Shown here: positions 3,644 through 40,646 of the stretch, piece after piece
Layout of the letters: every line of letters begins with the position of its first letter
How positions within the stretch are numbered: the stretch's first letter is position 1
Assembly: GCA_026390595.1 (NCBI GenBank)
Contig: JAPLFQ010000019.1
Location: 1 to 41,859, forward strand
Length of the DNA: 41,859 bases
From: Ignavibacteriales bacterium
Lineage (GTDB): Bacteria > Bacteroidota > Ignavibacteria > UBA10030
Direction of reading: 5' to 3'
Translations under genes and position numbers: made by a program
Notes under the pieces: model-generated
Databases searched by the model: none
Told to the model about the DNA's origin: nothing
The model's input: the letters and a program-made list of their open reading frames with translations, nothing else

Positions 3644-3758
3644 TTTTCGCCTCCTTTTATCACATGATAGGCGATCTGAAGAAAAGGAGACAACCAGAAA
3701 TGCTTGGCATTTTTTTTGCTAGGGTGGGACATGCGATTCTGCCAAGCATGGAGCATCC

Positions 3759-23279: not shown

Positions 23280-23280
23280 G

Positions 23281-23430
23281 GTCACGCTCTGTCGTGACCA
23301 CCCTGTTCGGACGTGACGGAGCAGGTCCGCTCCAACACGGGACATTACGCTCCGTGGCGACCGCGCTGTCCTGACGTGAGGGAGCAAGTCCTTCCAAGGT
23401 ACTTAGTCATACTCCTTCGTGACCATCCCC
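23281..23430. repeat. REP-like repeats upstream of the RAYT gene
   Basis: Two related copies of about 52 bp, 23281-23333 and 23344-23395, share ACGCTC, GACC, CTGT and GACGTGA-GGAGCA-GTCC in order. The first has the palindrome GTCACG (23281-23286) / CGTGAC (23293-23298) and the hairpin GGAGC (23318-23322) / GCTCC (23329-23333). A third partial copy with TCCTTCGTGACCATCCC ends near 23430, just before the transposase start. This is the arrangement expected of RAYT genes. Confidence 0.75.
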
Positions 23431-23440
23431 ATGTTACCCC

Positions 23441-23911: not shown

Positions 23912-24082
23912 TGCGCATCCACAAAAATGGGAAGCCATGGATGTTTGTAGTCACTCCAGTGATGATATGGCTGATTGTCAATTGACCGTTATCCATTGAC
24001 CATTGGAAGTCTCTCTTGACTCTCATCCCGAAACTCTCTACTTTTCAGATGTAATCGAGTGTCGTTCTTTTCCATAGAACGT
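23912..24082. other. Intergenic stretch between RAYT gene and riboswitch
   Basis: Nothing convincing is coded here. A short imperfect repeat, GTCAATTGACCGTTATCCATTGACCATTG, spans about 23976-24004; the sequence is quoted as two pieces, GTCAATTGACCG and CCATTGACCATTG. The riboswitch promoter must lie in or near this stretch, but no clear -35/-10 pair is seen. Confidence 0.4.
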
Positions 24083-24297
24083 TTTGGTGTCCCGACATCA
24101 TGAACTGATGAAGGGATGAAAAGGGAATTCCGTGCTCCGATCCGGTCCAGGCCGGGTTTGGAAATTCGGAAGCTGCCCCGCAACTGTAGTTCCGATCCTG
24201 CCTCGTGCAGGAAAATCTCTGACGCCAGAAGTCACTGCCTCGTTGCTGTTGGCGGGAAGACAAGTCAGGAGATCGGAAAAGCCAGGAGACCTGCCAG
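24083..24297 (+). ncRNA. Cobalamin riboswitch (B12 aptamer)
   Basis: The conserved blocks appear in the correct order. They are TTGGTGTCCC near 24084, GATGAAAAGGGAATTCCGTG near 24115, GCTGCCCCGCAACTGTAG (B12-box core) at 24172-24189, GCCAGAAGTCACTGCC near 24223, GGCGGGAAGACAAGTCAGGAG near 24251 (broken here as GGCGGGAAG and GTCAGGAG), and GCCAGGAGACCTGCC at 24281-24295. It senses adenosyl- or related cobalamin and normally lowers expression of downstream uptake genes. The next gene is a btuB-like receptor, exactly the expected target. Confidence 0.96.
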
Positions 24298-24367
24298 GAC
24301 GCTGCTTCATCGCTGCACTGTTCTACACAGTGCGGCGCGCTTCCGGTTTTGTGCCGGGAGTGTAACC

Positions 24368-24454
24368 TTCGCGGGAGGGTACTCATCAGGCATCGATGTC
24401 CGTCTGTGTCTTTCTTTAGCCCCCGTCCCGCGAAAATTGGATTGGGGGTTTTTT
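24368..24454 (+). promoter_or_regulatory. Riboswitch expression platform: alternative stems and terminator/RBS hairpin
   Basis: TTCGCGGGA (24368-24376) can pair perfectly with TCCCGCGAA (24426-24434). The second arm lies between CCCCC (24420-24424) and GGGGG (24444-24448), which is followed by six T residues. The two folds therefore look mutually exclusive. The G run is also the only ribosome-binding-like sequence before the GTG start at 24458, so the hairpin could act on transcription, translation or both. Confidence 0.6.
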
Positions 24455-24457
24455 GTT

Positions 24458-26437
24458 GTGCGTTTGATACGTTCCATAGTGCTCCTCTCTGTTGTCGTTG
24501 CCACCGGGCTGATCTCGCAGGTGAAGAACTCTGCGGCGGACAGCCTTGCGCAGAGTCAGCACGACCGCCTCTATACAATGCCCGAATTCGTTGTCTCTGC
24601 AACGCGTTGGCAGGTGAACGTGCAGCAACTTCCGTCGAGCGCGACGGTGCTGACGTCTGCGGACCTGCTAGGCGCAAACGGCAGTACCCTCGAAAACGCT
24701 CTCGAAGGAGTACCCGGACTTTTTCTGAAATCCTACGGCGGACCCGGCGCTGTGACGACGTCGTCGATCCGGGGAATGGGGGCCGAGCATACGCTCGTTC
24801 TCATCGATGGGCAGCGGTACAACAATGTCCTCGATGGCCAGGTCGATTTGGGCGTCTTCCTGATGCAGAATGTCGATCGGGTTGAAGTGCTTCGGGGTGG
24901 ATTCTCTTCCGTGTATGGAGCGGACGCTGTTGGCGGCATCATCAACATCATTACCCGGCGGCCGGACGGAAAGCTCGATGTGCGGGCCGAGCTGGGCGCC
25001 GGCTCCTACGGCATGAGCGGCTTCCAGCTGGGAACCGACTTCAGTCTGTTCGGCGTGGGCATGCAGGTGGCTGCAAAGCGCGAAGCAGGAAAAGGGGACT
25101 ATGAATTCGATTTCAACGATGGCATCTCTTCGAATTTGCTCCGCCGGCAGAATTCGGATTATGCTCTGCACCAGGTGCAGCTGCTCGCCGGCGCACTGCT
25201 TTCTCCAAATCTGAACCTGCGTGCATCCTCGATGTATGACTGGGCCGAGCGCGGATCGCCCGGAGCGGTCGTGACGGCTGCAAGCTACGCCATGGGGCGA
25301 CTGGTTGACCGGGGGTTCCTGAACCAGGCGACACTAGAATGGACCGTCACTCCGGCGCTTCTGGCACGATTCCCTTTGTTGTTTCACTCACAGCGAAGAG
25401 AATACTCCAACCCACTCGCAGAAGTCGCGGATGGTAATGATGATGCAGTCTACAATGACCGGACGATAGCGTTCACACCGCACGTGCGGTATTTTCTGAG
25501 TTCTTCTGCAGCGATCGACGCCGGCGCGGAGTATTCGCGTTCCTCCGTGTCGAGCAACAAAGTTCTCGGCTCAACGCGTGAACAGGCCGGTGTCTTCGTT
25601 TCTTCCGATCACGTCGTGGAATTCCAGAACTCGTTGGTCTATCAACTTAACATCTATCCTTCGGTCAGGTATGACCATTTCTCCGACGTCTCGGATGCGG
25701 TCAATCCAAGACTCGGAATCAACGTGGGATTGTGGCGGCCCTCCGGTCTGCGATTGAAGGCGAGCTATGCGAAGAGTTTCAAGGCGCCGACGTTCGACGA
25801 CTTGTACTGGAAGGGGGGAGGAAATCCTCTCCTCAGGCCTGAGCGGTCTCTCAGCTTCGATGCCGGCGTGGCGATCTCGCCTTCCCTGATCGGTGCGCTG
25901 GAGATCGAGGTCAATTACTTCGATATCCGCACGCATGACCGGATCGTCTGGAGCCCGGACAAGTCGGGCTTCTGGTCACCCAAGAATCTTCAGGATGTGC
26001 GGTCATCCGGCGTCGAACTGATCACTTCGTGGCATTTGTTTGAAGATCGGCTGATTCTGAGAGGCTTCTACTCCATTTTTGATACACGGAAAACCGGCTC
26101 CGCCTTGGCCGATGATCAGACGCTGAACAAACAGCTTCCATACATCCCGAGCGAGACTGCGGGACTTTCGTGCTCGGTCTCCATCGGGCGCACCCGGCTC
26201 AACGTCCATCATACGTTTACCGGTTTCCGGTATTCGACGGAGATCAACGATCCGAGATTCGTGCTTTCCGGGTTTGGAAAGACAGACGCCAACGTCTCCG
26301 TCCGGATTACCGAAGAGCCGTTCAACGCCGATCTCCGGTTCGAAGCGACGAATCTTTTCGAGTCGAGGTACGAACTCTTTCCAAGCTATCCAATGCCGCT
26401 GAGGAACTTCGCCTTGAAGATCCTCCTTGATTTCTAG
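24458..26437 (+). CDS. btuB: BtuB-like TonB-dependent cobalamin receptor
   Basis: Outer-membrane receptor that imports cobalamin with TonB energy. The GTG at 24458 gives 659 residues with a signal peptide (RLIRSIVLLSVVVATGLISQ); an ATG far upstream at 24116 reads through the riboswitch and is rejected. The TonB-box-like MPEFVVSATR is followed by the plug (ALEGVPGLFLKSYGG, SSIRGMGAEHTLVLIDGQRY, VEVLRGGFSSVYGADAVGGI) and a 22-strand-type barrel ending FALKILLDF. Substrate assignment rests mainly on the riboswitch and the following btuG-like gene. The stop codon lies within the inverted repeat that starts at 26434. Confidence 0.88.
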   Translation: MRLIRSIVLLSVVVATGLISQVKNSAADSLAQSQHDRLYTMPEFVVSATRWQVNVQQLPSSATVLTSADLLGANGSTLENALEGVPGLFLKSYGGPGAVTTSSIRGMGAEHTLVLIDGQRYNNVLDGQVDLGVFLMQNVDRVEVLRGGFSSVYGADAVGGIINIITRRPDGKLDVRAELGAGSYGMSGFQLGTDFSLFGVGMQVAAKREAGKGDYEFDFNDGISSNLLRRQNSDYALHQVQLLAGALLSPNLNLRASSMYDWAERGSPGAVVTAASYAMGRLVDRGFLNQATLEWTVTPALLARFPLLFHSQRREYSNPLAEVADGNDDAVYNDRTIAFTPHVRYFLSSSAAIDAGAEYSRSSVSSNKVLGSTREQAGVFVSSDHVVEFQNSLVYQLNIYPSVRYDHFSDVSDAVNPRLGINVGLWRPSGLRLKASYAKSFKAPTFDDLYWKGGGNPLLRPERSLSFDAGVAISPSLIGALEIEVNYFDIRTHDRIVWSPDKSGFWSPKNLQDVRSSGVELITSWHLFEDRLILRGFYSIFDTRKTGSALADDQTLNKQLPYIPSETAGLSCSVSIGRTRLNVHHTFTGFRYSTEINDPRFVLSGFGKTDANVSVRITEEPFNADLRFEATNLFESRYELFPSYPMPLRNFALKILLDF

Positions 26438-26607
26438 CAGGTTGTTGAAATTTGAAGTTTCGCCACCTTGAGCGGAGTCGAAAGGTGTCATAAGATGCAA
26501 AAACAGGCTTCGACTTCCCGCCTGCCTCGTAGGACTGTAAATGGCGGGCAGGCGCTCGGCCTGACGATACTATTGTTTGTGTGCCTGTTTTTTTAACAAC
26601 CTGCTAG
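26434..26607. mobile_element. 174-bp palindromic element between btuB and the btuG-like gene
   Basis: CTAGCAGGTTGTT (26434-26446) is a perfect inverted match to AACAACCTGCTAG (26595-26607); allowing one G-T pair extends the arms to 17 bases. Inside are CACCTT...AAGGTG around GAGCGGAGTCGA and a GC-rich hairpin CCGCCTGCC / GGCGGGCAGG. The GAGCGGAGTCGAA core recurs in the repeats near 3.1-4.2 kb. The left arm supplies the btuB stop codon. No gene is inside. A MITE-like insertion is the likely origin. Confidence 0.75.
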
Positions 26608-26613
26608 TGACCA

Positions 26614-27717
26614 ATGATGAACTCTGAGACAATGAAAATACTCGTGAGCCGTGTTGCCCTCGCCGTCAGCGCTCTTGCTCTGTCGCTTCACTTCTCGTTT
26701 GGGTGCAGGTCGAACCCGGCCGAACCGTCCGGCACGACGCCGACAAGCACCACAGGCGTGTACATCGTGAACGAAGGCAATTTCCAGCGGGGCAATTCGA
26801 CGCTCACCGTCTATCTCCCGGACTCGAACAAGGCATACCAGGACGTGTTTGCCCTCGCCAACGGCCGGAATCTGGGCGACACGGGGAACGACATCGTGTT
26901 ATACGGCGGAAAGGCGTACATCGTCGTCAGCGGCTCGCAGCGGATCGAGGTGATCTCGCTTGAAACGAACAAATCGTTCGGGACGATCACGTTTCCGGGA
27001 AAGCGGAATCCCTACAGGCTCGTCATCCTCAACGATGCAAAAGCGTTCGTCACGAATCTTTCCGATTCGTCAATCACAGAATTCAACCCGTCGACACTTC
27101 AGATCGTGACCGACCGGATCAAAGTTGGAACGTACCCCATGGGCATCCTGGGGGCGAACGGCAAGGTGTATGTCTGCAACTCCGGTTTCGGCTACGACAG
27201 CACGGTCACCGTGCTCAATGCGACGACCGGTGGACTCATCAAAACGATTGTCATTGGAGATAGTCCAAGCGAGATCGGTGTCGGGCCGAACAACGAAGTC
27301 ATTGTGAAGTGCGATGGCCGGAGCGACTACGTCAAACCGGCGAATGATACGCCAGGTTCGATTTCGAAAATCAACGCGGACAACGATGTCGTGTTCTCGA
27401 AAGTGACCCTGCCGCTGGCGACCTACGGACATCCGGGGCGGATGACGATCAGCAGCAAGGGGGTGGGGTATTTCCAGGCGAAGACCGGCGTTATCAAATT
27501 CTCCTACACCGGTTCCATTATAAGCGTTGGCGGCACACCGTTTTCCACGATCACGGCATACGGTCTCGCGTACGATGATGTAACCGACCGGCTCTATGTG
27601 ACAGACGCCAAGGACTATGCCCAGCCGGGCGACGTGTACATCCTCGATACCAACGGCGCCAGCATCAGGCAATTCCTGGGAGGCGTCATACCTGGAGCAA
27701 TTGCCTTCAAACACTGA
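26614..27717 (+). CDS. btuG: BtuG-like surface lipoprotein (YncE/DUF5074 beta-propeller)
   Basis: A 367-residue lipoprotein. The signal peptide ends in FSFGC, giving lipidated C31 (C25 if translation starts at the alternative ATG 26632, which gives a more compact signal peptide). A short Ser/Thr/Pro linker leads to a beta-propeller: GVYIVNEGNFQRGNSTLTVY, NDIVLYGGKAYIVVSGSQRI, KVYVCNSGFGYDSTVTVLNA, ATYGHPGRMTISSKGVGYF. In Bacteroidetes, BtuG proteins of this type bind B12 with very high affinity and cap BtuB. Position after a riboswitch-controlled btuB supports the same role here. The palindromic element separates the two genes but there is no other promoter visible. Confidence 0.8.
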   Translation: MMNSETMKILVSRVALAVSALALSLHFSFGCRSNPAEPSGTTPTSTTGVYIVNEGNFQRGNSTLTVYLPDSNKAYQDVFALANGRNLGDTGNDIVLYGGKAYIVVSGSQRIEVISLETNKSFGTITFPGKRNPYRLVILNDAKAFVTNLSDSSITEFNPSTLQIVTDRIKVGTYPMGILGANGKVYVCNSGFGYDSTVTVLNATTGGLIKTIVIGDSPSEIGVGPNNEVIVKCDGRSDYVKPANDTPGSISKINADNDVVFSKVTLPLATYGHPGRMTISSKGVGYFQAKTGVIKFSYTGSIISVGGTPFSTITAYGLAYDDVTDRLYVTDAKDYAQPGDVYILDTNGASIRQFLGGVIPGAIAFKH

Positions 27718-27989: not shown

Positions 27990-28018
27990 TTGACATTTGA
28001 GGTATCCTTCGGTAAAAT
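27990..28018 (+). promoter_or_regulatory. Strong sigma-70-like promoter of the giant repeat-protein gene
   Basis: TTGACA (27990-27995), exactly 17 bases, then TAAAAT (28013-28018). The start codon is 170 bases downstream, which leaves a leader of about 160 bases. Confidence 0.8.
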
Positions 28019-28187: not shown

Positions 28188-31100
28188 GTGAAATACCTTC
28201 GACTGTTTCTCGCACTCGCTGTCTCCCTTCTTCTCTCTGTTGGTGCGGCTTTCTCGCAAGATACTCCTCAACAAACTAAGCCCGACGGGACACTCGCTAC
28301 AATCACGATTTCAGGCCAGGTTCTCGTCGGGCACACGGGATTGGCCGGAGTCACCATATCAGGACTCCCAGGTAATCCAGTCACGGATGCATCTGGCAAT
28401 TACAGCGTCGTCTGCCCGGCTTTTTATTCAGGAACGGCCACGCCTTCGAAGGCGGGATACACCTTCAGCCCGGCATCGACGTCCTACGTCAGGGAGAGTG
28501 CGTCTTTGATCACCTCCTACACCGCTACCATCCTCACATATACAATCTCCGGCGCCGTGATGGACGCTTCTCAGTCTCCCATCAGCGGCGTCTCAATGAA
28601 TGGCCTGAAGGGTTCTCCTGTGACCAATTCATCCGGGGTCTACACCGCGTCCATGGATTACGGTCAATCATTTACCGTCACCCCATCAAAGGCGGGTTAC
28701 ACATTCAATCCGCCTTCCATGCCTTACACCAACCTCTTGGCTAATCAAACTCAAAACTTCCAGGGGACGATTCAATCGTTCTCGATTTCTGGTGACGTGA
28801 AGACTTCTACGGGTGCAGCTATCCCCGGTGTCGTGATGAGCGGTCTCTCCGGAAATCCAACCACCGACGCGACCGGCCACTATGCAACGACAGTCAATTA
28901 CGGCACTTCCTGGACTGTGACTCCAGCGCTGGCCGGATACACCTTCAGTCCAGCTAATAAGGTCCACAATTATGTGACTTCAAATATCTCCCAGGACTAC
29001 GTTGCGACTCAACTCACATACGCCGTCTCTGGTACCGTAAAGACCTCCGCAGGAGTGGCGATCAGCGGCGTGACGATGAGTGGACTGACCGGGAGTCCCG
29101 TTACTGACGCAAGTGGCTTCTACACCGCCACCGTGAATTGGGGCTTCACCGGACCAGTAACACCAACTTTGGCGGGATATGCATTCTCCCCTTCCTCAAC
29201 GACCTACGCAAACGGTGTGCAGAGCAATCAAACAACCAACTACACCGGTACTATACAGAAATTCGTTATCTCAGGCTATACGCGATTCTCGGACAGATCG
29301 GCGCTCTCGGCTGTGACCATGAGCGGACTCCCAACCAGCCCGACCACCAACTCCAACGGTTACTACAGTGATACTGTCACGTATGGCTGGAGCGGTACAG
29401 TAACCCCAACGAAGGCCGGATACACCTTCGATCCGGTCTCTACGACCTATAGCAATGTCTCTGCCCCCCCCCAGGGCACGAGCTACGAAGCTTCAGTCCA
29501 GACAATCGCGATCTCCGGCTTTGTAAGGGATGGAAATAACCGCTCAATCAGTTACGTGGTGATGAGTGGATTACCCAACAGTCCGACCACAAACAGCGAC
29601 GGGTACTACACCTCAACCGTCTCCTACGGCTGGTCCGGAACTGTCACACCCTCGAAATCAGGCTACGCGTTTACGCCGGCTTCGGTCTCATACTCAAATG
29701 TGACGAGTAGCCAGACTGGAAACTACACTGGCACGCTTACATATACAATCTCGGGCTCTGTCAAAACACCCGGCGGTGCTGCAATCGCCGGCGTGACGAT
29801 CAACGGATTGCCCGGGAATCCGGTGACCACAGTCAACGGCACGTACTCGGCAACGGTCAACTCGGGATGGTCCGGAACTGCGACGCCATCCCTGAGCGGA
29901 TACGTCTTCAGTCCGACATCAAAAGACTTTTCAAACGTCACGTCGAATCAAACGTGCGACTTCACCGGGGCACAAAACTACTCGATTTCGGGAACTGTGA
30001 CGAGGGGCGGGATGGGGTTGGGAGGGGTCGTGATGAGCGGACTCACCGGGAATCCCAGTACGAACCCGTATGGCTCATATTATGCCACGGTTACTGCCGG
30101 CTGGTCAGGCACGGTTACGCCTACTCTCTCTGGTTACCGCTTCCTTCCAACAGCAACAATCTACACATCCGTCGCTTCAGATCAATCGACCAATTACACC
30201 GCATACAGGCAATTCACGATTTCGGGAACTGTGAAGAGCTCGTCTGGGGCTGTGCTCACCGGTGTGACGATGAGCGGGCTGGGAAATACCGTGACCGACG
30301 GGAACGGCTCCTATTCTGCAGTGGTGGACTCGGGTTGGTCAGGGACCGTCACGCCGATTTACACGGGCTATGATTTCTCGCCGGTGTCGATGACGTACTC
30401 AGGCATTACGGGGAATCAATCCAAGGACTATACCGGGACGCTCAAGACGTATACGATTTCGGGAACGGTCAAGACCTCTGCGCAGGTCGCGATCCCGGGA
30501 GTTGTTCTTAGTGGGCTGACGGGCAATCCGAGCACCGATGCCTCGGGGGCCTATTCGGCCAGTGTCAGCTACGGCTGGACCGGAACAGTGACCCCGACGA
30601 AAAGCGGCTACACATTCTCACCGGCCAGCACGGACTATCGCTCGGTCTCAAGCAGTCAATCGACAAGCTATGTCGGAACGCTACAGACGTTTACGGTTTC
30701 AGGCTACGTTCGCACAGCGGCCGGGGCGGGGATCAGCGGCGTTTCGCTCAGTGGTTTCCCCGGGAGTCCCGCGACGGACACGTCCGGCTTCTATTCCGCA
30801 GCTGTCAGCTACGGATGGTCAGGCACAGTCACGCCCGCGAAGACCGGATACACGTTTTCGCCTTCCAACTCCACGTACAGCAATCTGACATCGAGCCAAT
30901 CGACAAACTACACCGGTTCTCTTGCCACGTGCACAATATCCGGCACAGTCAAGACCTCTGCCGGAGCAGGGATAGCGGGAGTAGTGCTGAGCGGTTTGAC
31001 GGGGAATCCTTCGACGGACGCGTTGGGCGCGTATTCGGCCACTGTGAGCTATGGCTGGCAGGGGACCGTCACTCCTACGTTGAGTGGATACAGTTTCAAC

Positions 31101-34100
31101 CCGGTGTCTACAACATACAACGGTATGACCGCAAGTCAGGTGACGCACTACGTCGGCACATCGCTGTCTTATACGATCTCGGGCTCTGTCCGTACATCCG
31201 CCGGAGCTTCGATTACCGGTGTTGTTCTCAGCGGTCTTCCCGGAAATCCGTCGACTGATGCAAATGGCGCGTACTCAGCTTCGATTACATATGGTTGGTC
31301 GGGGACCGTGACGCCGACGAAGCCGGGATACTCTTTCGATCCCGCCTCCAAAAGCTACAACGGAGTGAACTCGAGCCAGACCACGAACTACACAGGAACT
31401 CTCTCTACCTACACCATTTCTGGCACCATCACGACCTCAGGCAGGACTGGGATTAGCGGGGTTGTCCTGAATGGATTGCCCGGAAATCCGACGACGGACA
31501 CTTCCGGATACTACCGGGCAACTGTGGACTATGGCTGGTTCGGAACGGTGACTCCATTGAAAAGCGGATACGGCTTCAGTCCGTCCTCCACAACGTACAG
31601 CAGCGTCGCAGCCAATCAGAATTCGAATTATACGGGGACGCCGCTTTCGTGCAAGATCAGCGGGACGATCCGGACTTCTGCGCAAACGGGAATCTCGGGC
31701 GTCCTCCTCAGCGGTTTGCCGGGCAATCCGACGACAGACACGTCGGGCGCTTACTCAGTAGTGGTGACCTACGGCTGGTCAGGAACCGTGACGCCGGCGA
31801 AGACCGGCTATAGCTTCAGCCCAGTATCGTCGACCTACGGCAACGTGACAACCGATCAGGTTACGAACTATACCGCCACATTGCTAACCTACGCCATCAG
31901 CGGTGCAATTCGGACTGCTGCGCAGTCTGGCGTCTCAGGTGTAGTCCTGAGCGGTCTGCCGGGAGATCCGGCAACCGATGCGACGGGTGCTTACTCGGTG
32001 AAGGTGAACTATGGTTGGTCGGGAACAGTGACGCCTGTAAAAGCGGGCTACTCGTTCAGTCCCGTATCGTCGAATTACCTCAATGTGATTTCCGATCAGG
32101 TGACGAATTATGCCGCTACATTCCTGACAAATGCCATCAGCGGCACCGTCCGGACGGCTGCAGGAGCAGGCATCAGCGGCGTCGTGCTGAATGGGTTGCC
32201 GGGCAATCCGGCGACCGATGCCACCGGTGCGTACACGGTCACGGTCGATTATGGATGGAGCGGTACGGTGACCCCGGCGAAGTCCGGATATACATTCAGT
32301 CCGCCGTCGACCAGCTATACAAATATTACGACGAGCCAAACCGGCAACTTCACAGGGACGTTGCTGATGTATTCAATCTCCGGATCGGTGCGGACTGCGA
32401 CCGGAGCGGCCATCAGCGGTGTGCTACTGAGCGGTTTGCCGGGCAATCCGACGACAGACGTTACAGGTCACTATGCTGCGACGGTGGATTACGGCTGGTC
32501 GGGGAGTGTCGTGCCATCGAAGAGCGGCTATGTATTCGCGCCTTCATCAACTCCGTACTCGAACGTCACTGGTAATCAAGCTGCCGACTACGTTGGAGCG
32601 CCTTCGGCATACAACATTTCGGGATATATCAGAACCGCGGCAAACGTCGGAATTGCAGGAGTGGTATTGAATGGACTGGAGGGAACTCCGAGCACGAATT
32701 CTGACGGGTTTTATAGTGGAGGAGTGAGTTTCGGGTGGTCGGGAACAGTAACTCCGGCAAAACCTGGATACACTTTCACCCCGCCTTCCGTGACGCACTC
32801 CAATGTAACTGCCGACCAGTCACAAAACTACACCGGCACAACGATTGGATACACGGTGAGCGGTTATGTGCGCACCACGGCGAATGCGGGCGTCAGCGGT
32901 GTAACTATCAACGGACTGCCGGGAAATCCCATCACGAACTTGGATGGTTACTACTCAGCGCCGATAGACTATGGATGGTCAGGGACCGTTACGCCGGTGA
33001 AGCCGGGATACACGTTTGACCCGCCTTCAACCGCCTACGCGAGCGTCTCCGGAAACCAGGCGACGAACTATACCGCTACGTTTGCCAAGATCTTGGTCTC
33101 GGGATATGTGCGGACGGCAGCGAGAACAGGAGTCAGCGGCGTAGTGATGAACGGCCTCCCGGGAAGTCCGAGCACAAATGGGAATGGCTTCTACACGGCG
33201 ACGCTCGATTATGGCTGGTCGGGGACGGTGACTCCAGTGATTGCCGGTTATTCGATAAATCCCCCCTCAAGTGTTTACTCAGGAGTGACAGCAGACCAGT
33301 CGACCGACTATACGGCGACAGCATTGACGTTTACGATTTCCGGGTATGTCCGGACAGCTGCCGGAGCCGGAATCAGTGGCGTCGTCATGAATGGTTTGCC
33401 AGGAAGTCCGGGCACAAGCGCGGATGGATTCTACGCCGGTACGGTGGACTACGGTTGGTCGGGGACAGTGACGCCCGCGAAATCCGGTTATGCCATCAGC
33501 CCATCCACAACAAGTTACACCAATGTCACATCAAGTCGATCGACTGACTATGTCGGGATCGTCCTGACCACTTCTGTCGCAGGGTATGTCCGCACTTCGT
33601 CGGGCTCGGGCATCGGCGGCGTTCTTATGAGCGGGCTGCCGGGGAGTCCTTCCACGGATGCGAACGGGTATTATTCCGTATCTGTGGACTACGGATGGTC
33701 AGGAACGGTGACGCCCGCCAAGGCCGGCCACGTGTTCAGCCAGCCGTCCACGACGTACAGCAACGTAATCTCGAATCAGTCAACCAACTATGTGGGAACG
33801 CCGCTAACATACACGATTACGGGAAGCGTCCGCATGGTTGGTGGCGGTGGGCTTGGTGGTGTGCTCATATCAGGGTTGCCGGTAAGTGTTACAACAACTG
33901 CAGATGGAAACTACACAGCGACGGTCGACTATGGATGGTCGGGCACTGTGACGCCGACGAAGGCGGGCTACGAGTTTAGTCCGCCGTCAAACACCTACAC
34001 AAACGTCACGAGCAACCAGGCGAACGATTACATCTCCTGGTTGCAGGCGTACACAATTTCCGGATATGTCCGCACTGCGTCGGGTTTGGGCGTGGGCGGA

Positions 34101-35411
34101 GTGGTGATGAACGGTCTTATCGGGAACCCATCGACAGACTCGACGGGATTCTATTCGACGTTTGTGAATTATGGGTGGTCGGGAGTGGTGACGCCAACGA
34201 AGACGGGATACACTTTCAATCCGTTATCCTCTACCTACAGCAGCGTCGCAGCGAGTCAAACGACGAACTACGCCGCGTCTCTGCTCACGTTCACTATTTC
34301 GGGATTCGTCCGCACATCAGCGGGAGTGAGGATCAACGGTGTTGTCATGACAGGCCTCCCGGGCGATCCGGCAACAGACACTTCTGGTGCGTATACAGCG
34401 ACTGTTACCTATGGCTGGTCCGGTACTACGAAACCTCTCAAAGCGGGATACACGTTCGATCCAACTTCGACTTCGCACACGAATGTAACGACTGACCAAC
34501 GAAAGGACTATGTGGGGAAGTTGATTCAGAATCCCGTCCCGACGTTGGCAGGTATCATACCGACATCGGGCGTCAGAGGAAAGAGGGTTTCAGTTGTATT
34601 AGCAGGTACGGAATTCATTGCGGGGATCACATCGGTAGGATTCGGGGCAGAGGTCACGGCGGATTCGGTGATTGTGATTAATCCCACACAATTAAGCGCA
34701 ATGCTTTCTGTCAGTGCCGCAGCGGCTGCAGGAGCGCGTGATGTTACAGTAACAAACAGCCCGCCTGGCGGCGGGACCGCGACGCTTTCTGCCGCGTTTA
34801 CTGTGACGAATCCGGCACCATCGGTTGCCTCCGTTGTACCTGCCGCCGCCGGAAGGGGAAGCGTATTGATTGTCAAAGTGACCGGCTCGAATTTCATCAG
34901 CGGCATCACCACTGTCAGTTACGGCACAGACATCACGGTTTCCAACCTCCTCGTAAAAAGCCCCACGGAATTACAGGCAAGCGTCACGATTAGTTCATCG
35001 GCGGCTGTGGGCCTTCGCGCTGTGACGATCACCAATGCCGCTCCGGGCGGAGGATCTTCAAGTTTGCCGAATGCATTCAACGTGACGACGAGCCCCGCCA
35101 CTGGCATTGTGGCTAACGGAGTCCTTCCGGACCAATACCTGCTGCAGGAAGCGTATCCGAACCCGTTCAATCCATCGACGAGGGTGGGGTTCGGTCTCCC
35201 TGAGGACAGCAGAATCACGTTGGACGTGCACAACATGCTTGGCAATGTCGTCGCTGAGTTGGTAATCGGCCAACGCGCGAAGGGGTTGTACGAGCTCCAG
35301 TGGCACGCGGATAATCTGCCAAGCGGTGTGTACCTCATCCGGATGCATGCCGAATCGCTGGAATCAACAAAGAGGTTCATCGCGTCTCGAAAAGTAGTGC
35401 TCGTGAAGTAA
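28188..35411 (+). CDS. Giant surface protein: 26 tandem beta-sandwich repeats, two IPT-like domains, T9SS sorting domain
   Basis: A 2407-residue exported protein. A GTG start with AGAGGGGTGAGG upstream gives the signal peptide MKYLRLFLALAVSLLLSVGA. From about residue 39 there are 26 repeats of roughly 80 residues. Their consensus is ISGxVRTxAGxGISGVVxxG, then LPGNPxTDxxGxYxxxVDYG, then WSGTVTPxKxGYxFxPxSxx, then YxNVTSxQxxNYTGTL. They resemble carboxypeptidase-regulatory or Cna-B-like domains. Two IPT-like domains with TNxxPGGG motifs follow. A T9SS type-A sorting domain (AYPNPFNPSTRVGFGLPEDS to KVVLVK) ends it. It is probably a filamentous adhesin or surface-layer-like protein; ligand unknown. 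It has its own promoter and terminator. Confidence 0.93.
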   Translation: MKYLRLFLALAVSLLLSVGAAFSQDTPQQTKPDGTLATITISGQVLVGHTGLAGVTISGLPGNPVTDASGNYSVVCPAFYSGTATPSKAGYTFSPASTSYVRESASLITSYTATILTYTISGAVMDASQSPISGVSMNGLKGSPVTNSSGVYTASMDYGQSFTVTPSKAGYTFNPPSMPYTNLLANQTQNFQGTIQSFSISGDVKTSTGAAIPGVVMSGLSGNPTTDATGHYATTVNYGTSWTVTPALAGYTFSPANKVHNYVTSNISQDYVATQLTYAVSGTVKTSAGVAISGVTMSGLTGSPVTDASGFYTATVNWGFTGPVTPTLAGYAFSPSSTTYANGVQSNQTTNYTGTIQKFVISGYTRFSDRSALSAVTMSGLPTSPTTNSNGYYSDTVTYGWSGTVTPTKAGYTFDPVSTTYSNVSAPPQGTSYEASVQTIAISGFVRDGNNRSISYVVMSGLPNSPTTNSDGYYTSTVSYGWSGTVTPSKSGYAFTPASVSYSNVTSSQTGNYTGTLTYTISGSVKTPGGAAIAGVTINGLPGNPVTTVNGTYSATVNSGWSGTATPSLSGYVFSPTSKDFSNVTSNQTCDFTGAQNYSISGTVTRGGMGLGGVVMSGLTGNPSTNPYGSYYATVTAGWSGTVTPTLSGYRFLPTATIYTSVASDQSTNYTAYRQFTISGTVKSSSGAVLTGVTMSGLGNTVTDGNGSYSAVVDSGWSGTVTPIYTGYDFSPVSMTYSGITGNQSKDYTGTLKTYTISGTVKTSAQVAIPGVVLSGLTGNPSTDASGAYSASVSYGWTGTVTPTKSGYTFSPASTDYRSVSSSQSTSYVGTLQTFTVSGYVRTAAGAGISGVSLSGFPGSPATDTSGFYSAAVSYGWSGTVTPAKTGYTFSPSNSTYSNLTSSQSTNYTGSLATCTISGTVKTSAGAGIAGVVLSGLTGNPSTDALGAYSATVSYGWQGTVTPTLSGYSFNPVSTTYNGMTASQVTHYVGTSLSYTISGSVRTSAGASITGVVLSGLPGNPSTDANGAYSASITYGWSGTVTPTKPGYSFDPASKSYNGVNSSQTTNYTGTLSTYTISGTITTSGRTGISGVVLNGLPGNPTTDTSGYYRATVDYGWFGTVTPLKSGYGFSPSSTTYSSVAANQNSNYTGTPLSCKISGTIRTSAQTGISGVLLSGLPGNPTTDTSGAYSVVVTYGWSGTVTPAKTGYSFSPVSSTYGNVTTDQVTNYTATLLTYAISGAIRTAAQSGVSGVVLSGLPGDPATDATGAYSVKVNYGWSGTVTPVKAGYSFSPVSSNYLNVISDQVTNYAATFLTNAISGTVRTAAGAGISGVVLNGLPGNPATDATGAYTVTVDYGWSGTVTPAKSGYTFSPPSTSYTNITTSQTGNFTGTLLMYSISGSVRTATGAAISGVLLSGLPGNPTTDVTGHYAATVDYGWSGSVVPSKSGYVFAPSSTPYSNVTGNQAADYVGAPSAYNISGYIRTAANVGIAGVVLNGLEGTPSTNSDGFYSGGVSFGWSGTVTPAKPGYTFTPPSVTHSNVTADQSQNYTGTTIGYTVSGYVRTTANAGVSGVTINGLPGNPITNLDGYYSAPIDYGWSGTVTPVKPGYTFDPPSTAYASVSGNQATNYTATFAKILVSGYVRTAARTGVSGVVMNGLPGSPSTNGNGFYTATLDYGWSGTVTPVIAGYSINPPSSVYSGVTADQSTDYTATALTFTISGYVRTAAGAGISGVVMNGLPGSPGTSADGFYAGTVDYGWSGTVTPAKSGYAISPSTTSYTNVTSSRSTDYVGIVLTTSVAGYVRTSSGSGIGGVLMSGLPGSPSTDANGYYSVSVDYGWSGTVTPAKAGHVFSQPSTTYSNVISNQSTNYVGTPLTYTITGSVRMVGGGGLGGVLISGLPVSVTTTADGNYTATVDYGWSGTVTPTKAGYEFSPPSNTYTNVTSNQANDYISWLQAYTISGYVRTASGLGVGGVVMNGLIGNPSTDSTGFYSTFVNYGWSGVVTPTKTGYTFNPLSSTYSSVAASQTTNYAASLLTFTISGFVRTSAGVRINGVVMTGLPGDPATDTSGAYTATVTYGWSGTTKPLKAGYTFDPTSTSHTNVTTDQRKDYVGKLIQNPVPTLAGIIPTSGVRGKRVSVVLAGTEFIAGITSVGFGAEVTADSVIVINPTQLSAMLSVSAAAAAGARDVTVTNSPPGGGTATLSAAFTVTNPAPSVASVVPAAAGRGSVLIVKVTGSNFISGITTVSYGTDITVSNLLVKSPTELQASVTISSSAAVGLRAVTITNAAPGGGSSSLPNAFNVTTSPATGIVANGVLPDQYLLQEAYPNPFNPSTRVGFGLPEDSRITLDVHNMLGNVVAELVIGQRAKGLYELQWHADNLPSGVYLIRMHAESLESTKRFIASRKVVLVK
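28302..34530 (+). repeat. Coding tandem array: 26 units of about 240 bp
   Basis: About 6.2 kb of DNA encodes 26 back-to-back 79-81-residue units. The segment for YGWSGTVTP is nearly invariant from unit 5 on. The first four units and the last differ most, and the middle ones are most alike, as expected for homogenisation by recombination. Length variation between strains is likely. Confidence 0.92.
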
Positions 35412-35423
35412 CATCCGCTGACG

Positions 35424-35458
35424 ATGCCACGCGCCGCTCAGGTGCGTGGCATTTCTTT
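35424..35458 (+). terminator. Intrinsic terminator after the giant repeat-protein gene
   Basis: Twelve pairs, ATGCCACGCGCC (35424-35435) with GGTGCGTGGCAT (35441-35452) including one G-T pair, a five-base loop, then TTCTTT. It begins 13 bp after the stop. Confidence 0.88.
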
Positions 35459-35711
35459 GTACATCTTTCGCGCCAAGCGTTTTGAATTGCTCTCCTCGTT
35501 TTGCTGTCGTACTTTTCCCCCACAGCAGAGCCCATCTCTACAAAGTAACTTCATCAGTCTTGTCACAGGGGACTTTGATTGCGAAGGTCGCCCCTGACTG
35601 CCCGAAAAGATACAGAACTCACGCGGGAAAGACTGATTCCTCTTTCAAATAGTCACGCCGCAGTTGTGTCCGCTCCACCCAGCCGCATTCTTAAGCCTCG
35701 TGAGCAAAGCC
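35459..35711. other. Intergenic region with no recognised feature
   Basis: No gene, clear promoter, hairpin or repeat was recognised. A promoter for the next gene is expected here because a terminator stands upstream, but no TTGACA/TATAAT-like pair at proper spacing is seen. Confidence 0.4.
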
Positions 35712-38700
35712 ATGACCCACACCATGCAAACAATTCCCCGCATGTTCTTTCTCCTCCTAATCAATCTGGTTCTTCCCGCCAACGCGATGATTCTCCCAGC
35801 GTCAGTTCAGACGTCTCCTGGGTCCGATGGAGATTACCGGTCGGTGCGCTCGGGAGACTGGCACAAGGATTCCACATGGGCCAGATGCGCGGCCGGTGTC
35901 TGGATCACGCCGGCACCGCCTCCCGACTCAAGTTCGGGTGTTGTCACGGTGCGAACCGGGCATTCCGTAACGATCAGGAGCACGCTCGCGTATGATCAGG
36001 TAGTTGTGGAGGAAGGCGGGCAGGTTGTCGTTGCGCCTGGGACCAGTCACACATTGACTGACGGTCCGGGGAACGACTTGATTATCAACGGAACGTGGGT
36101 GAATCAAGGATCGACCTGGACCATTTCCGGAAGTGCCAGATGGGTCGTCAATGACGGCGGCACATTCGTGCAGAACACCTCCTCAGGAATATCGACCCCT
36201 CTTTCAAAAGCTGCGCTGTCCCGTGCAAGCAGCTTCGTCTATCGGGGCGGAACTGCATTGGTACCGGCTTCGTCTTTTTCTGGCCGCACGTATGGCAACC
36301 TCGCTTTTGATTCGAGCGGCGGGATGTGGACATGCTCGGCCGCCGGTTCCAGCGCTTTGACCATCAGCGGAAATCTGACCATCGGTACAGGGGTCAAATG
36401 GAATACCAGCGGATTCGCGGGTGCAATCCTTGTCCAGGGTGCGACGACGATCGAAGGAGAGTGGGGTGGGACTGGTTCGGGGAATCAGGGGACGCACACG
36501 TTCGCTGGGGCATTCTCCGTTCTGAGCACGGGAAAATATGCGCTTTCGACAAGCGGCGCTGTTCAGGGAGGACTCGTATTTCAGTCGGATCTTACAAACC
36601 ATGGCTCGCTCTCGACGCCGTCGAACCGCACGATACTCTTGATTGGCCAGAGCGTTCAGTCGATCGCCGGGTCGGCGGCGCTCACGTTCAACAGAAGCCT
36701 CACGGTAAACAATCCGGCAGGCGTCCTGTTGGAGTGCCCGGTTTCTCTCGAAGATACACTCTTCTGCGTTGCCGGCAATCTGTGCACGGGCAGGCAACTC
36801 CTTACCGTGGGGTCGAAAGCTGCCCTTGTCGAGCGGGATTGTTCATCAGTTGTAGGGAAGGCCTCGGCCAGCAGAGCACTGCAGAACGGCGTAACCGAAT
36901 CATTTGGAAACCTCGGGCTTGATATCACTCCAGCATCACCGTACACCGGGACAATTACGGTGATGCGTGAGACCTCAAGTCCGCAGTCGATCGAAAGTGT
37001 CAGAACCATCAGCCGGTGTTTTGACGTCGTACCCTCAGTCTCTGCAAACAGCGCGGCCGAATTCCGGTACCATTTCAACGAATGCGATCTCTCCGGTGCA
37101 ATCAAGGCCAATTTGAAACTGTACAAATCGAGTGATGGCGGCGCTACGTGGAGGGACGAAGGAGGAATTGTCGATTCGGCGAAGAATACAATCAGACTCG
37201 ATGCGATCTTGTCAGCTTCCCGATGGGTGGCCGGCGAACCGATTCCAACGCCAACGATCGGTTCTGTGAGTCCGGCGTTCGCGGAATCCGGCTCGTCGTT
37301 AAGCTTATCGGTATCGGGGACGGGGTTCGTGACCGGAATAAGCAGCGTGTCATTCAGCGGGACCGGCATTACCGTTGCCTCCATCTCCGTCATCTCCGCA
37401 ACGCACATCATCGCGGGGATCGTCGTTTCTCCCTTCGCCCCGCTCGGCGTTCGCGATATCACTGTGACAAACGCTTCGGGCAGCGCGTCAATGCTCGCCA
37501 ATTGTTTTGAAGTGCGCCCGCATCTCAATCCATTCCCGGTAATCACCGGTATGTTCCCGGCATCAGGGTTTCGAGGGGGTGCGGCAGAGGTGGTGGTGCG
37601 CGGGCGCGGATTTGCGAATGGTCTTACGGTTGCTTCATTCGGAGAAGGCATCGTTGTCGGAAACACCAGAGTCGCGGCGGAGACTGAACTCATCGTCTCG
37701 ATTGCCCTGAATCAAGGGGCTCAACCCGGCATGCGGAATGTGTCTGTGGCAAACCCGCCTCCGGGGGGAGGGCTTTTCATCTTCCCGAATGGGTTCCTTG
37801 TTCTCAATCCCGCCCCTTTAATCAACACTGTTTCTCCAATCACGTTTGTCCGTGGAGAGACTTCCTGGATATCACTCAGGGGGAAAGATCTGTATGCTGA
37901 TGCCACGCGCCTTGACGTGGGGGAAGGGATTACGCTTGATTCGCTCGTTGTCGAATCATCTACGATTCTGAAAGCCAGAATCAACATCGCCATTTCAGCG
38001 AGGACCGGCGAAAGGGACCTCGCACTCGTCAATGCTCCTCCGGGAGGAGGGAGCGCCAGGCTTCCCGCCGCAATGAACATTGTGAACCCGTCACCGATTG
38101 TCCGAATGTTCGCTCCAGACACCGTCATTGTCGGTCAGCAAGCAGAGTTGACACTCGACGGATCGGGATTCATACAGGACGTGACATCTGTCAGGATTGG
38201 AAACGGCGTGACGGTCGATTCAGTTGTCGTCAGGAGCGGTTCCAGGCTCACCGCCAACGCGCTGGTTGCGATGACCGCGATTCCTGGGCCGAGAGACGTC
38301 ACTGCAACAAATAATCCCCCCGGTGGGGGAACAGTCACGTTGCCGGGAAGAGTCATCGTGGCAAGTCCGCATCCCCGCATTGATAGTATCGCGCCTGCAA
38401 TCGCGGTGGGCGGAACGCGCGAAAGGATCACTGTGCGGGGAGGGGGGTATGTCCCGGGATTGACGCGGCTCGATTTTGGTGCTGGCATCAGGGTGGATTC
38501 AATGGAGTTTTACGGATCGTCCTGCCTCGTGGCTTCGATATCGATTTCCGGATCGATTCGGGGCGGTGCCAGGGATGTGGCCTTGATGAATCCTGGACCC
38601 GGTGGCGGAGCAACGCGCCTTTCAGGCGCACTTGTGATAAACAACCCTGTGCCAATCATAACAAGCCTCTCCGCAACATCCGGTTCCCGGGGAAATACGT

Positions 38701-40646
38701 TCACCATCATGGTCAATGGAGGAAACTTCACACAAGGGGTTACATCCCTCGTATTCGGGGAAGATGTTAACGTGGACAGTGTCAGGGTGACCAGTCCGGA
38801 TTGCCTGTTCGCTGGAATTACCGTCAGTCGTTTGGCGTCGACTGGTTTGCGCGACGTGCAAATCACGAATTGCGCTCCTGGCGGAGGGTCTCGGCTGGTT
38901 CGCGGAGCTTTCGCCGTCACGAACCCGTCGCCGGTTCTCAGGGAAATCAGTCCACGCACTGTGTGTATCGGTGAGACAATCACGCTGAAACTCAACGGAT
39001 CGGGATACCTCGATGGAGTGACGACACTTGACCTTGGGGCGGGAATCGCGGTGGGCACAATAATCATCGACTCATTGGGGAGGGAGATTGTGTCGATCAT
39101 TTCTGTCGATCGCACTGCAGCTGCGGGATGCCAAATTGTTCAAGTTTCGAATGCAAAGCCCGGGGGCGGCACTGCATCCCTGCCGAACGCCCTCGAACTC
39201 GTCTATCCTGCTCCCGTCCTCGCGAGTATTGCGCCGCTCGGCGGAAACCGATCGCAAGCATTCGAGATCACCATAACAGGAAGAAACTTCATCCCCGGCG
39301 CAACGAAGGTAGGTGTTGGAGCTGACGTTGAAGTCAAATCAATCATGGTGAAAAGTTCCGTTGAAATGAGGGGCACCGTCACCATCGGAGCTGAGGCGGC
39401 TCTTGGTCAAAGGACCGTCGTCGTGTCCAATCCATCTCCCGGAGGAGGGGCGTCGGCACTGACGAACGCTTTCACCATTGCTAATTCAGCTCCAATGTTG
39501 GCCCATATGACTCCGTCTGCCGGAGCAAGAGGGGATACGCTGGATGTTCTCCTCGAGGGCATGAACTTCACCGTAGGTGAAACTCGTGCGAGCTTCGGGG
39601 ACGGAATCATTATCACTTCATTGACGAGGCATAGCTCGTCCGTCATGACTGTGCGTGTCGCCATCGCAACTACTGCCGAAGTGGGACCCAGAGATGTTGC
39701 ACTCACGACCGCAGAACCCGGTGGAGGACAATGCAGACTGTGCGGCGCTTTTGCAGTCGTGAATCCGTCTCCGATTGTCACAAGTGTCTCTCCCTCCGCT
39801 GGCTGCAGGGGGAAAACGTATGTCGTGTCGGTGACCGGATCGCGTTTCGAGTCGGGCATCAGTTCTTCGGATTTTGGATCAGGGATTACGGTAACGGCGC
39901 TGCGCATTGACAGCCCGGAGATGCTGACGGCGGTGATATCGATAGGAGTCATCGCCAAAACGGGAGTGAGGCCCGTCATCGTCCGGAACAAAGGGCCCGG
40001 TGGAGGTACTGCGAGTCTGGCCGGAGCGTTCGCCGTTTGGAACCCATCTCCAGCGCTCACAGCTGTGTCTCCCGCCGAGTGTGTCCGCGGCAGATCTCTG
40101 CAAGTGACACTAACCGGAGAGAATTTTATCGCCGGCGAAACGTCAACAGATTTTGGGCCGGGTGTCACTGTGCAAGCGCTCGCTGTGAAGAACGGTTCCG
40201 AAATCAGCGTGAATCTGTGCGTCGATCGATCAGCAGAACCGGGCCCTCGAGCCGTGAGCATTACGAATGGGCAGCCCGGTGGTGGCGTGGCCACGCTCGT
40301 GAATGGGTTTCTAGTACAATCAGACGTGGCCTCTCTTGTCCTGAAAGGGTCAGAACAGGCTCCGACGCGAAATGCCTTGAACGAGGCTTTTCCAAATCCG
40401 TTCAATGGAAGAACAGCGATCAGCTATCAGCTTTCAGTTGCCAGCCTGGTGACGCTCAAGGTGTTCGATTTGCTCGGAAGGGAGGTGGCATTGTTGGTCA
40501 ACGGCGAACATGCGGCTGGCGTTCATCAGGCATGGTTTGATGCAGGCGATAGAACGAGCGGCATGTATTTCGTTTGTCTTGTTGCAGAGTCAATGGAATC
40601 ACGAGCGAGGTTCGTCGCATCGAAGAAAATTGTTCTGGTGAGATAG
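35712..40646 (+). CDS. Large surface protein: beta-helix-like N-terminus, 11 IPT/TIG-like PGGG repeats, T9SS sorting domain
   Basis: The ATG at 35712 gives about 1644 residues and a signal peptide (MQTIPRMFFLLLINLVLPANA from the nearby second ATG, 35727); a TTG at 35664 would extend it without support. The first 450 or so residues are beta-helix-like (HSVTIRSTLAYDQVVVEEGG, DLIINGTWVNQGSTWTISGS). Then come 11 repeats of about 93 residues built on NPSPIVTSVSPSAGCRGKTY, FGSGITV and TNxxPGGGxAxL. The end is a T9SS type-A sorting domain (AFPNPFNGRTAISYQLSVAS to KKIVLVR). The same PGGG module occurs twice in the preceding protein. Probably a second surface adhesin or scaffold; function unknown. Confidence 0.9.
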   Translation: MTHTMQTIPRMFFLLLINLVLPANAMILPASVQTSPGSDGDYRSVRSGDWHKDSTWARCAAGVWITPAPPPDSSSGVVTVRTGHSVTIRSTLAYDQVVVEEGGQVVVAPGTSHTLTDGPGNDLIINGTWVNQGSTWTISGSARWVVNDGGTFVQNTSSGISTPLSKAALSRASSFVYRGGTALVPASSFSGRTYGNLAFDSSGGMWTCSAAGSSALTISGNLTIGTGVKWNTSGFAGAILVQGATTIEGEWGGTGSGNQGTHTFAGAFSVLSTGKYALSTSGAVQGGLVFQSDLTNHGSLSTPSNRTILLIGQSVQSIAGSAALTFNRSLTVNNPAGVLLECPVSLEDTLFCVAGNLCTGRQLLTVGSKAALVERDCSSVVGKASASRALQNGVTESFGNLGLDITPASPYTGTITVMRETSSPQSIESVRTISRCFDVVPSVSANSAAEFRYHFNECDLSGAIKANLKLYKSSDGGATWRDEGGIVDSAKNTIRLDAILSASRWVAGEPIPTPTIGSVSPAFAESGSSLSLSVSGTGFVTGISSVSFSGTGITVASISVISATHIIAGIVVSPFAPLGVRDITVTNASGSASMLANCFEVRPHLNPFPVITGMFPASGFRGGAAEVVVRGRGFANGLTVASFGEGIVVGNTRVAAETELIVSIALNQGAQPGMRNVSVANPPPGGGLFIFPNGFLVLNPAPLINTVSPITFVRGETSWISLRGKDLYADATRLDVGEGITLDSLVVESSTILKARINIAISARTGERDLALVNAPPGGGSARLPAAMNIVNPSPIVRMFAPDTVIVGQQAELTLDGSGFIQDVTSVRIGNGVTVDSVVVRSGSRLTANALVAMTAIPGPRDVTATNNPPGGGTVTLPGRVIVASPHPRIDSIAPAIAVGGTRERITVRGGGYVPGLTRLDFGAGIRVDSMEFYGSSCLVASISISGSIRGGARDVALMNPGPGGGATRLSGALVINNPVPIITSLSATSGSRGNTFTIMVNGGNFTQGVTSLVFGEDVNVDSVRVTSPDCLFAGITVSRLASTGLRDVQITNCAPGGGSRLVRGAFAVTNPSPVLREISPRTVCIGETITLKLNGSGYLDGVTTLDLGAGIAVGTIIIDSLGREIVSIISVDRTAAAGCQIVQVSNAKPGGGTASLPNALELVYPAPVLASIAPLGGNRSQAFEITITGRNFIPGATKVGVGADVEVKSIMVKSSVEMRGTVTIGAEAALGQRTVVVSNPSPGGGASALTNAFTIANSAPMLAHMTPSAGARGDTLDVLLEGMNFTVGETRASFGDGIIITSLTRHSSSVMTVRVAIATTAEVGPRDVALTTAEPGGGQCRLCGAFAVVNPSPIVTSVSPSAGCRGKTYVVSVTGSRFESGISSSDFGSGITVTALRIDSPEMLTAVISIGVIAKTGVRPVIVRNKGPGGGTASLAGAFAVWNPSPALTAVSPAECVRGRSLQVTLTGENFIAGETSTDFGPGVTVQALAVKNGSEISVNLCVDRSAEPGPRAVSITNGQPGGGVATLVNGFLVQSDVASLVLKGSEQAPTRNALNEAFPNPFNGRTAISYQLSVASLVTLKVFDLLGREVALLVNGEHAAGVHQAWFDAGDRTSGMYFVCLVAESMESRARFVASKKIVLVR

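Follow-up and report, generated by a model that had tools for sequence, protein, structure and literature searches.

The stretch of DNA analysed here (the window) comprises positions 1 to 41,859 of contig JAPLFQ010000019.1 from an Ignavibacteriales bacterium (assembly GCA_026390595.1; 41,859 nucleotides). The subject of this study is one long gene within it, the rod gene (28188–35411, forward strand), which lies next to genes for putative vitamin B12 uptake proteins. Its product of 2407 amino acids is made up of a signal peptide, 26 tandem units predicted to be transthyretin-like or CnaB-like sandwiches, two IPT-like domains and a type A tail for the type IX secretion system (T9SS). We consider it probable that this protein is a T9SS-anchored fibrillar stalk, that its array of units is ancient and frozen, and that the array replaced a rod of IPT domains inside an older gene.

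The reading frame opens with GTG behind a stretch that by eye resembles a ribosome-binding site, and runs without an internal stop. The signal peptide, also assigned by eye, covers residues 1–23 (28188–28256; this and all further features lie on the forward strand) and would end in FS, leaving Gln as the mature N-terminus. The 26 units extend over 6.2 kb (28302–34529, from unit 1 at 28302–28538 to unit 26 at 34290–34529). They are followed by two IPT-like domains (residues 2116–2301; 34533–35090), matched by NF058597 with 52.8 bits in two stretches and numbered by counting repeats, and by a T9SS type A sorting domain (35154–35408), which is matched over residues 2323–2398 and then taken to the end. 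A terminator-like hairpin with a 13-pair stem (35423–35453) lies right after the stop codon; 18 such hairpins were found in the scanned region with 16.2 expected, a number not above chance.

The count of 26 was obtained by hand and again with a unit profile, which gave 26 matches in the 4.77-Mb genome, every one of them in the rod protein. The tail exceeds the cut-offs of both Pfam PF18962 (29.6 bits, cut-off 27) and NCBIfam TIGR04183 (27.4 bits, cut-off 23), and the genome contains a gene for the SprA translocon, which matches TIGR04189 with 1116 bits (cut-off 200) over positions 4–2318 of 2319, a family with no match in any of 14 control genomes. A PorV-family protein (34.5 bits, cut-off 27) was found among the proteins of the window, SprA being the T9SS part that was searched for genome-wide. 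These matches support the assignment of the rod protein as a putative T9SS-sorted cargo. A sequence-only reading of the window had described a 2407-residue protein with 26 beta-sandwich repeats and a T9SS tag at the C-terminus, and both the single frame with its 26 units and the tag have held up. The units are poor in charged residues, with Thr, Ser and Gly together accounting for 44%, and neither the whole protein nor the units gave an adhesive family above cut-off in Pfam and NCBIfam scans.

The sandwich fold likewise finds support in prediction. AlphaFold2 models of units 15–17 (mean predicted local distance difference test score 97.2, predicted template modelling score 0.75; built on an alignment of 24 overlapping three-unit stretches of the rod protein itself) and of units 1–3 plus the preceding residues (94.8 and 0.72) are confident and all-beta, the last strand of each unit leading almost directly to the following unit's first strand, without unstructured linkers. 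The best match of the whole triplet in the PDB is the Bacillus anthracis surface protein TIE (6fwv_B; Z 14.1, root-mean-square deviation 4.2, 235 residues); taken one at a time, the units resemble the transthyretin-like domain of carboxypeptidase D (5aq0_A; Z 11.3, deviation 1.9, 76 residues) and CnaB2 (8bdw_A; Z 9.5, deviation 2.6, 82 residues). The models thus support a series of stacked transthyretin-like or CnaB-like sandwiches, which beyond three units would presumably continue as a rod. The prediction gives the outermost unit the fold of the others and so shows no separate tip domain, nor was one recognised in the Pfam and NCBIfam scans.

By sequence the units lie at some distance from the families that share their fold. 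The whole rod protein did not match the CarboxypepD_reg families PF13620 and PF13715 at E up to 1; taken singly, 15 of the 26 units matched PF13620 (best E 6e-4) and five matched PF13715 (best E 0.0029) at that threshold, and the scores of one unit, 13.0 and 12.7 bits, do not reach the gathering cut-offs of 32.3 and 32.2. No solved relative was found by sequence, either for the full-length protein (E up to 1) or for a 26-row profile (E up to 10). The isopeptide bond of CnaB domains is defined by a conserved Lys, a Glu or Asp, and an Asn. Locking of the units by such a bond is not supported, because no such set is conserved: the best columns hold Lys in 19, Glu in 1, Asp in 16 and Asn in 15 of the 26 units.

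In length the units are indeed almost uniform (80 amino acids in 21 of 26 and 78–81 in the others at the first cut; unit 1 was trimmed by one residue to 79 for the later analyses), and the same can be said of their predicted fold. The description of the repeats as near-uniform does not extend to their sequence, for which the mean pairwise identity is 53% in protein (range 38–74%) and 56% in DNA (range 41–73%). Tandem Repeats Finder reported no array at the rod gene, the longest exact DNA repeat in the array is 30 bp, and even the closest pair, units 15 and 16, is only 73% identical in DNA. An assembly artefact or a collapsed array is unlikely, given this short longest repeat and given that both junctions of the array enter sequence shared with congeners.

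Along the array, traces of order are visible in the protein. Mean identity to the other units is 46% for units 1 and 2, 55–58% for units 10–17, 50% for unit 24 and 51% for unit 26; the likeness of the central units (10–23) was reached by none of 2000 random unit orders and that of adjacent units by 2 of 2000. The earlier suggestion that terminal units are diverged and central ones alike therefore stands for the protein and is weak at silent sites, where the central excess was reached by 134 of 2000 random orders.

The third base was compared at fourfold degenerate positions where two units share a codon box, and the agreement was set against that expected from the codon usage of the gene. Agreement was found at 2694 of 9082 sites (29.7%) with 28.5% expected, which is the saturation floor, so that there is no sign of recent homogenisation. 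The same test does detect younger arrays: silent identity is 60% against 28% expected in a five-unit array of the congener G001 (locus L123), 87% against 52% in a five-unit array of Geothrix rubra (L164) and 53% against 32% in a planctomycete array (L141). For these arrays, as for the IPT arrays below, the expectation is a gene-wide average over codon boxes and is cruder than the pairwise one used for the rod array. In some arrays of low identity the silent sites are in excess as well, as in L162, where protein identity is 45% and silent identity is 53% with 30% expected; uneven codon use along the gene might be the cause. Arrays of IPT domains encoded by the rod gene's counterpart (gene 1) in the congeners G005, G003 and G002, and by the second rod gene (gene 2) of the window, lie near the floor as well, with 28.2% against 28.9%, 29.5% against 28.0%, 29.6% against 27.6% and 29.5% against 28.2%, respectively.

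Concerted evolution at the DNA level, which the sequence-only reading had offered as the reason for the likeness of the central units, is rejected on the evidence of the silent sites and of codon shuffles. From the traces of order in the protein, together with silent sites that have been rewritten, it follows that the array grew by tandem duplication long ago, and selection on the fold, instead of gene conversion or slippage, is the simplest cause of the likeness that remains. Two cases of apparently recent copying may be mentioned besides. The Geothrix rubra frame, with 84% protein and 87% silent identity, is a candidate for a recent change in repeat number. In the window itself, a 133-bp tandem repeat (3758–4122; 2.7 copies, 97% alike) lies in the intergenic gap ahead of a class V aminotransferase gene, and its copying, unlike that of the rod array, looks recent.

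These results bear directly on the suggestion of the sequence-only reading that repeat number may vary between strains and mediate adhesion or self-recognition, and on the idea that the rod protein works as a Periscope-like adhesin, in which recombination between near-identical repeats would vary their number from strain to strain and so tune how far a tip projects. That the unit can expand by recent duplication is indicated by the five-unit array of the congener with its 60% silent identity. In the rod array itself, the highly identical long DNA repeats that strain-level slippage needs are absent: mean DNA identity is 56%, no exact repeat exceeds 30 bp and the silent sites are saturated. Furthermore, the sandwich predicted for unit 1 is that of the other units, without a recognised tip domain to be projected. 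Rods at the same place in two near congeners also keep their units one-to-one, as set out below. We regard a Periscope-like mechanism as very improbable.

For comparison within the genus, the window genome was set beside five congeners (G001–G005). Gene 1 is the next gene after btuG, the gene for a BtuG-like protein, in G001, G002, G003 and G005, and precedes gene 2 in G004; genes 1 and 2 are adjacent in five of the six genomes and lie on two contigs in G005. Over its C-terminal 293 amino acids the rod protein is 66% identical to gene 1 of G005, 64% to that of G004, 60% to that of G003, 59% to that of G001 and 56% to that of G002. Against the same stretch, gene 2 reaches 37–50% in four congeners and 41% in the window; gene 2 of G003 is cut, and that of G001 is cut before the tail, with 36% over its IPT part.

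Upstream of the C-terminal region the likeness ends. Gene 1 carries 10 IPT domains in G005, at least 9 in G004, 13 in G003, 8 in G002 and 4 in G001, sitting behind other N-terminal sequence in the last three, and the rod-type unit was not found in gene 1 of any of the five congeners. The unit occurs in three of the six genomes, with 26 copies in the window genome, seven in G001 (5 + 2) and two in G004, the latter two genomes bearing it in other genes. In G001 it forms a stretch of five or of two units behind sequence that by eye resembles a beta-propeller.

The gap between btuG and the rod gene measures 470 nucleotides in the window, the rod gene being the next gene. In an alignment of the window genome with G001, G002, G003 and G005, the DNA of this gap has diverged except for one element, CTTGACATT followed by a 17-bp spacer and TAnnATT, and TTGACATT occurs once in the gap of each of the five. 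In the window the element reads as a promoter-like TTGACA-17-TAAAAT (27990–28018), matching the consensus at 11 of 12 positions; promoter-like sites as such are not more numerous than chance in the scanned region (6 found, 8.3 expected). Judged by its place, its promoter and its pairwise identities, the rod gene corresponds in position to gene 1 of the congeners and is presumably its ortholog. Because the promoter and the C-terminal anchor recur in congeners whereas the rod does not, one rod module appears to have replaced another within an otherwise conserved gene, which would have kept its address and its anchor. The replacement probably ran from IPT domains to the transthyretin-like unit, because five genomes have an IPT rod at this place and one has rod-type units.

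Best matches between the IPT units of G004 and G005 always join units of equal position (9 of 9 in gene 1, 8 of 8 in gene 2), which is the point against a Periscope-like variation in number announced above; G002 and G003 differ, with 8 and 13 units in gene 1, of which the last five correspond one-to-one. In the cases seen, the unit number of rods at the gene 1 position is preserved in closely related species and differs where the relationship is more distant. It is tentatively proposed, at somewhat less than even confidence, that the whole rod is exchangeable at a conserved address beside the B12 genes, with promoter, anchor and the property of forming a long fibre kept, the folding family replaced, and the rods otherwise frozen.

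Directly downstream of the rod gene, gene 2 of the window (35664–40646) encodes a second putative T9SS rod protein with 11 IPT-like domains (NF058597, 241 bits). Its tail is above the cut-off of TIGR04183 (26.7 bits, cut-off 23) and slightly below that of PF18962 (26.3 bits, cut-off 27). The protein also matches domain III of the quinohemoprotein amine dehydrogenase alpha subunit (PF09099, 92.3 bits).

Upstream lies a set of elements typical of B12 uptake. A cobalamin riboswitch (RF00174, 24068–24312; 82.7 bits, gathering 31.5) precedes a BtuB-like TonB-dependent receptor (24116–26437), recognised by the Pfam families TonB_dep_Rec_b-barrel and Plug and by its best PDB sequence match, BtuB1 (8blw_A, E 4.6e-39); its true start probably lies further in, since the listed start overlaps the riboswitch. 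It is followed by a BtuG-like beta-propeller of the DUF5074 type (26614–27717; PF16819, 56.6 bits), which in the PDB is matched best by 8p97_B (E 8.2e-29) and 8bmy_A (E 2.4e-28), with 8blw_B, a chain of the BtuB1 entry, at E 6.5e-24. By their chain names and the title of PMC10404256, we take 8blw, 8p97 and 8bmy to be BtuB–BtuG complexes. As a whole, the segment from 21588 to 27717 represents a riboswitch/BtuB-like/BtuG-like set outside the Bacteroidales. A gamma-glutamyltranspeptidase gene lies upstream of the set, as it also lies beside it in G027 and G019, two genomes of another genus in the same family, and in the window an IS200-like transposase frame (23441–23911; Y1_Tnp, 26.0 bits, cut-off 23) is found between the transpeptidase gene and the riboswitch.

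The position of the rod gene raises the possibility that its product is an accessory protein of B12 acquisition, serving the adjoining BtuB–BtuG by binding corrinoids or by keeping binding proteins, or the cell, close to a source. The rod gene, or gene 1, directly follows btuG in five of the six genus genomes, a btuG-type propeller match is present in all six (the close match of G004 being a piece of 61 residues), and the cobalamin riboswitch is found in four (window genome, G002, G003, G005), the contigs of G001 and G004 stopping short of its position. Furthermore, B12 loci of Bacteroides contain extra surface proteins such as BtuH2, with immunoglobulin-like N-terminal domains (PMC8941943). 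The transcript seems to be a separate one, though, since the conserved promoter-like element, the terminator-like hairpin and the absence of a riboswitch from the gap at E up to 1 argue for independent transcription of the rod gene; the sole RNA-family match in the scan of the gap, a small RNA (E 0.71, below its gathering score), falls inside btuG. G027 and G019 have the riboswitch and the BtuB-like and BtuG-like genes, but the 20 kb read there contain no rod gene. In G004 other genes follow the btuG piece, and the rod gene is on a different contig. The change of rod module from species to species also speaks against a specific ligand site. It is only the place of the gene that suggests a link between the rod and B12 capture, and an accessory role in B12 acquisition is in our view unlikely.

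Outside the genus the unit recurs in shorter arrays. Matches were found in 53 of 395 genomes of a phylum sample, the window genome included, with at most 14 candidates scored per genome; elsewhere in this sample at most five units were counted per open reading frame read, which are lower bounds as the loci are often cut. A contig scan with the whole array as query found no relative. A scan of named-species genomes yielded 65 loci, 31 of them from records titled as Planctomycetota and the others from Aminicenantes, Hydrogenedentes, Chloroflexi and further groups. With units counted at a domain E below 1e-3 in the best frame of each of the 65 loci (the G001 locus L123 among them), the 26 units of the rod gene form the longest array of this unit found, followed by arrays of 16 and then 8.

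Exactly eight units occur in 17 of the 65 loci. In Planctomycetota, they form the N-terminal side of a protein with a secretin domain (PF00263) in eight of the ten eight-unit frames scanned out of these 17 (L141:7884-11324, L139:6960-10724, L129, L136, L137, L144, L153 and L162), the two without it being L138, cut off by the end of its contig, and L151 (753 amino acids). Unit 8 of these arrays holds its place across species, 225 of its 272 best matches falling at the same position, and units 7 and 1 do so to a lesser degree. Two of these planctomycete relatives, L136 (34.6 and 39.2 bits) and L162 (33.4 bits), exceed the CarboxypepD_reg cut-offs. The array of 16 units, from Hydrogenedentes (L133:2967-10403), consists of 8 + 8, and in all 16 cases the best partner of unit i is unit i+8, which amounts to a tandem duplication of half the protein. 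A higher-order period of eight units was also looked for in the rod array and rejected, the plot of identity against distance having no peak at 8.

Considering all of this, we propose that the rod protein would be exported by Sec, cross the outer membrane through the T9SS and be anchored by its sorting domain, so that it would extend outward from the cell as a fibre. The 26 stacked domains, on two IPT domains and the sorting tail, would then act as a stalk and determine reach or spacing at the surface of the cell, either by spacing something or by serving as a contact surface itself; surface display and stalk function are both inferred. At the 3.5–4 nm typical of such domains, a straight rod of this kind would measure about 90–100 nm in total. 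The array would stem from an old duplication, with selection on the protein keeping the units alike while silent sites became saturated and neither gene conversion nor slippage visibly reshaping it, and it would have come to lie inside an older gene that shares its promoter and C-terminal anchor with the IPT rods of the congeners. A spacer or stalk role is favoured over a specific ligand site because sister species use another domain family at this place and because the units of G001 stand behind beta-propeller-like sequence.

A fibre of an adhesin or of a biofilm matrix, whose repeated domains themselves recognise a glycan, a surface or one another (self-recognition) with no separate tip, would be compatible with a frozen array. 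The protein is long, has few charged residues, is rich in Thr, Ser and Gly and is without other recognised domains, and N-termini consisting of stalk only occur among predicted fibrillar adhesins (PMC9210967). The lack of any adhesive family above cut-off and the five- or two-unit stretch of G001 behind its propeller-like sequence speak for a spacer instead, and such an adhesive fibre seems to us rather unlikely, if less so than a role in B12 acquisition.

Several observations weigh against the proposal of an ancient stalk that replaced an IPT rod. The structure models rest on an alignment of the rod protein's own repeats. At silent sites a weak excess exists between adjacent units (0.321, reached by 128 of 2000 random orders) and within three units (0.315, reached by 29 of 2000); mean DNA identity is 0.558 compared with 0.535 after codon shuffling, and there is the one exact match of 30 bp. 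Saturation is not rare in this unit family either: by rounded values, 14 of the 35 arrays with at least four units lie within 0.04 of expectation and 21 lie at least 0.05 above it. A tree of the C-terminal 293 amino acids does not group gene 1 (two changes; one group in 30% of bootstrap trees), owing to long branches, and the orthology therefore rests on place, promoter and pairwise identity. The number of IPT domains in gene 1 differs among congeners (4, 8, 10 and 13), so that rods do change over species time. Finally, in G004 the btuG piece lies at a contig end, the 9.6 kb downstream of it contain other genes and no rod gene, and the rod gene stands at the start of another contig, the gene order at this locus being broken or misassembled. 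The piece itself (L110:9640-9825) is the end of a btuG gene at the contig edge, with unrelated genes downstream that by eye are glycosyltransferase-like.

If the whole rod is indeed exchangeable at this address, rod-building families would be functionally interchangeable and rods frozen rather than variable in length. The rod array is a counter-example to the view that long surface proteins made of tandem domains are always length-variable adhesins, and the silent-site test, by which it comes out as frozen, can tell frozen from active arrays. The apparent swap of a stalk fold with place, promoter and anchor kept would moreover constitute a natural experiment on whether reach or sequence is under selection in stalks.

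Among known systems, SprB and similar T9SS adhesins are large and contain repeats. The rod protein has in common with them that it is a large, putatively T9SS-delivered surface protein, and differs by its type A tail. With the CarboxypepD_reg (PF13620, PF13715) and CnaB domains it shares the predicted fold, but its units stay below the Pfam cut-offs and lack the Lys/Glu/Asn set. TIE of Bacillus anthracis (6fwv), a surface protein as well, is the best three-unit match (Z 14.1) and is only 12% identical. No paper describing the unit as a T9SS stalk was found in the open-access literature searched.

Periscope Proteins (PMC8201768, PMC9704523) also present tandem folded domains as a surface rod, which for the rod protein is a matter of prediction. 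They are characterised by highly identical DNA repeats in variable numbers, with adjacent SHIRT domains that are 82–100% identical in protein, whereas the rod array, with 56% DNA identity and saturated silent sites, lacks this defining DNA feature. Fibrillar adhesins and fibrillar adhesin-like stalk proteins (PMC8286594, PMC9210967) are long single chains with tandem stalk domains and a surface anchor at one end. By sequence and prediction the rod protein has both such a stalk and such an anchor, but it carries a T9SS sorting domain rather than a sortase motif and no recognised adhesive domain. It belongs to the fibrillar stalk proteins, and what is unusual about it is the length of its array, its frozen state and the apparent replacement of one rod by another.

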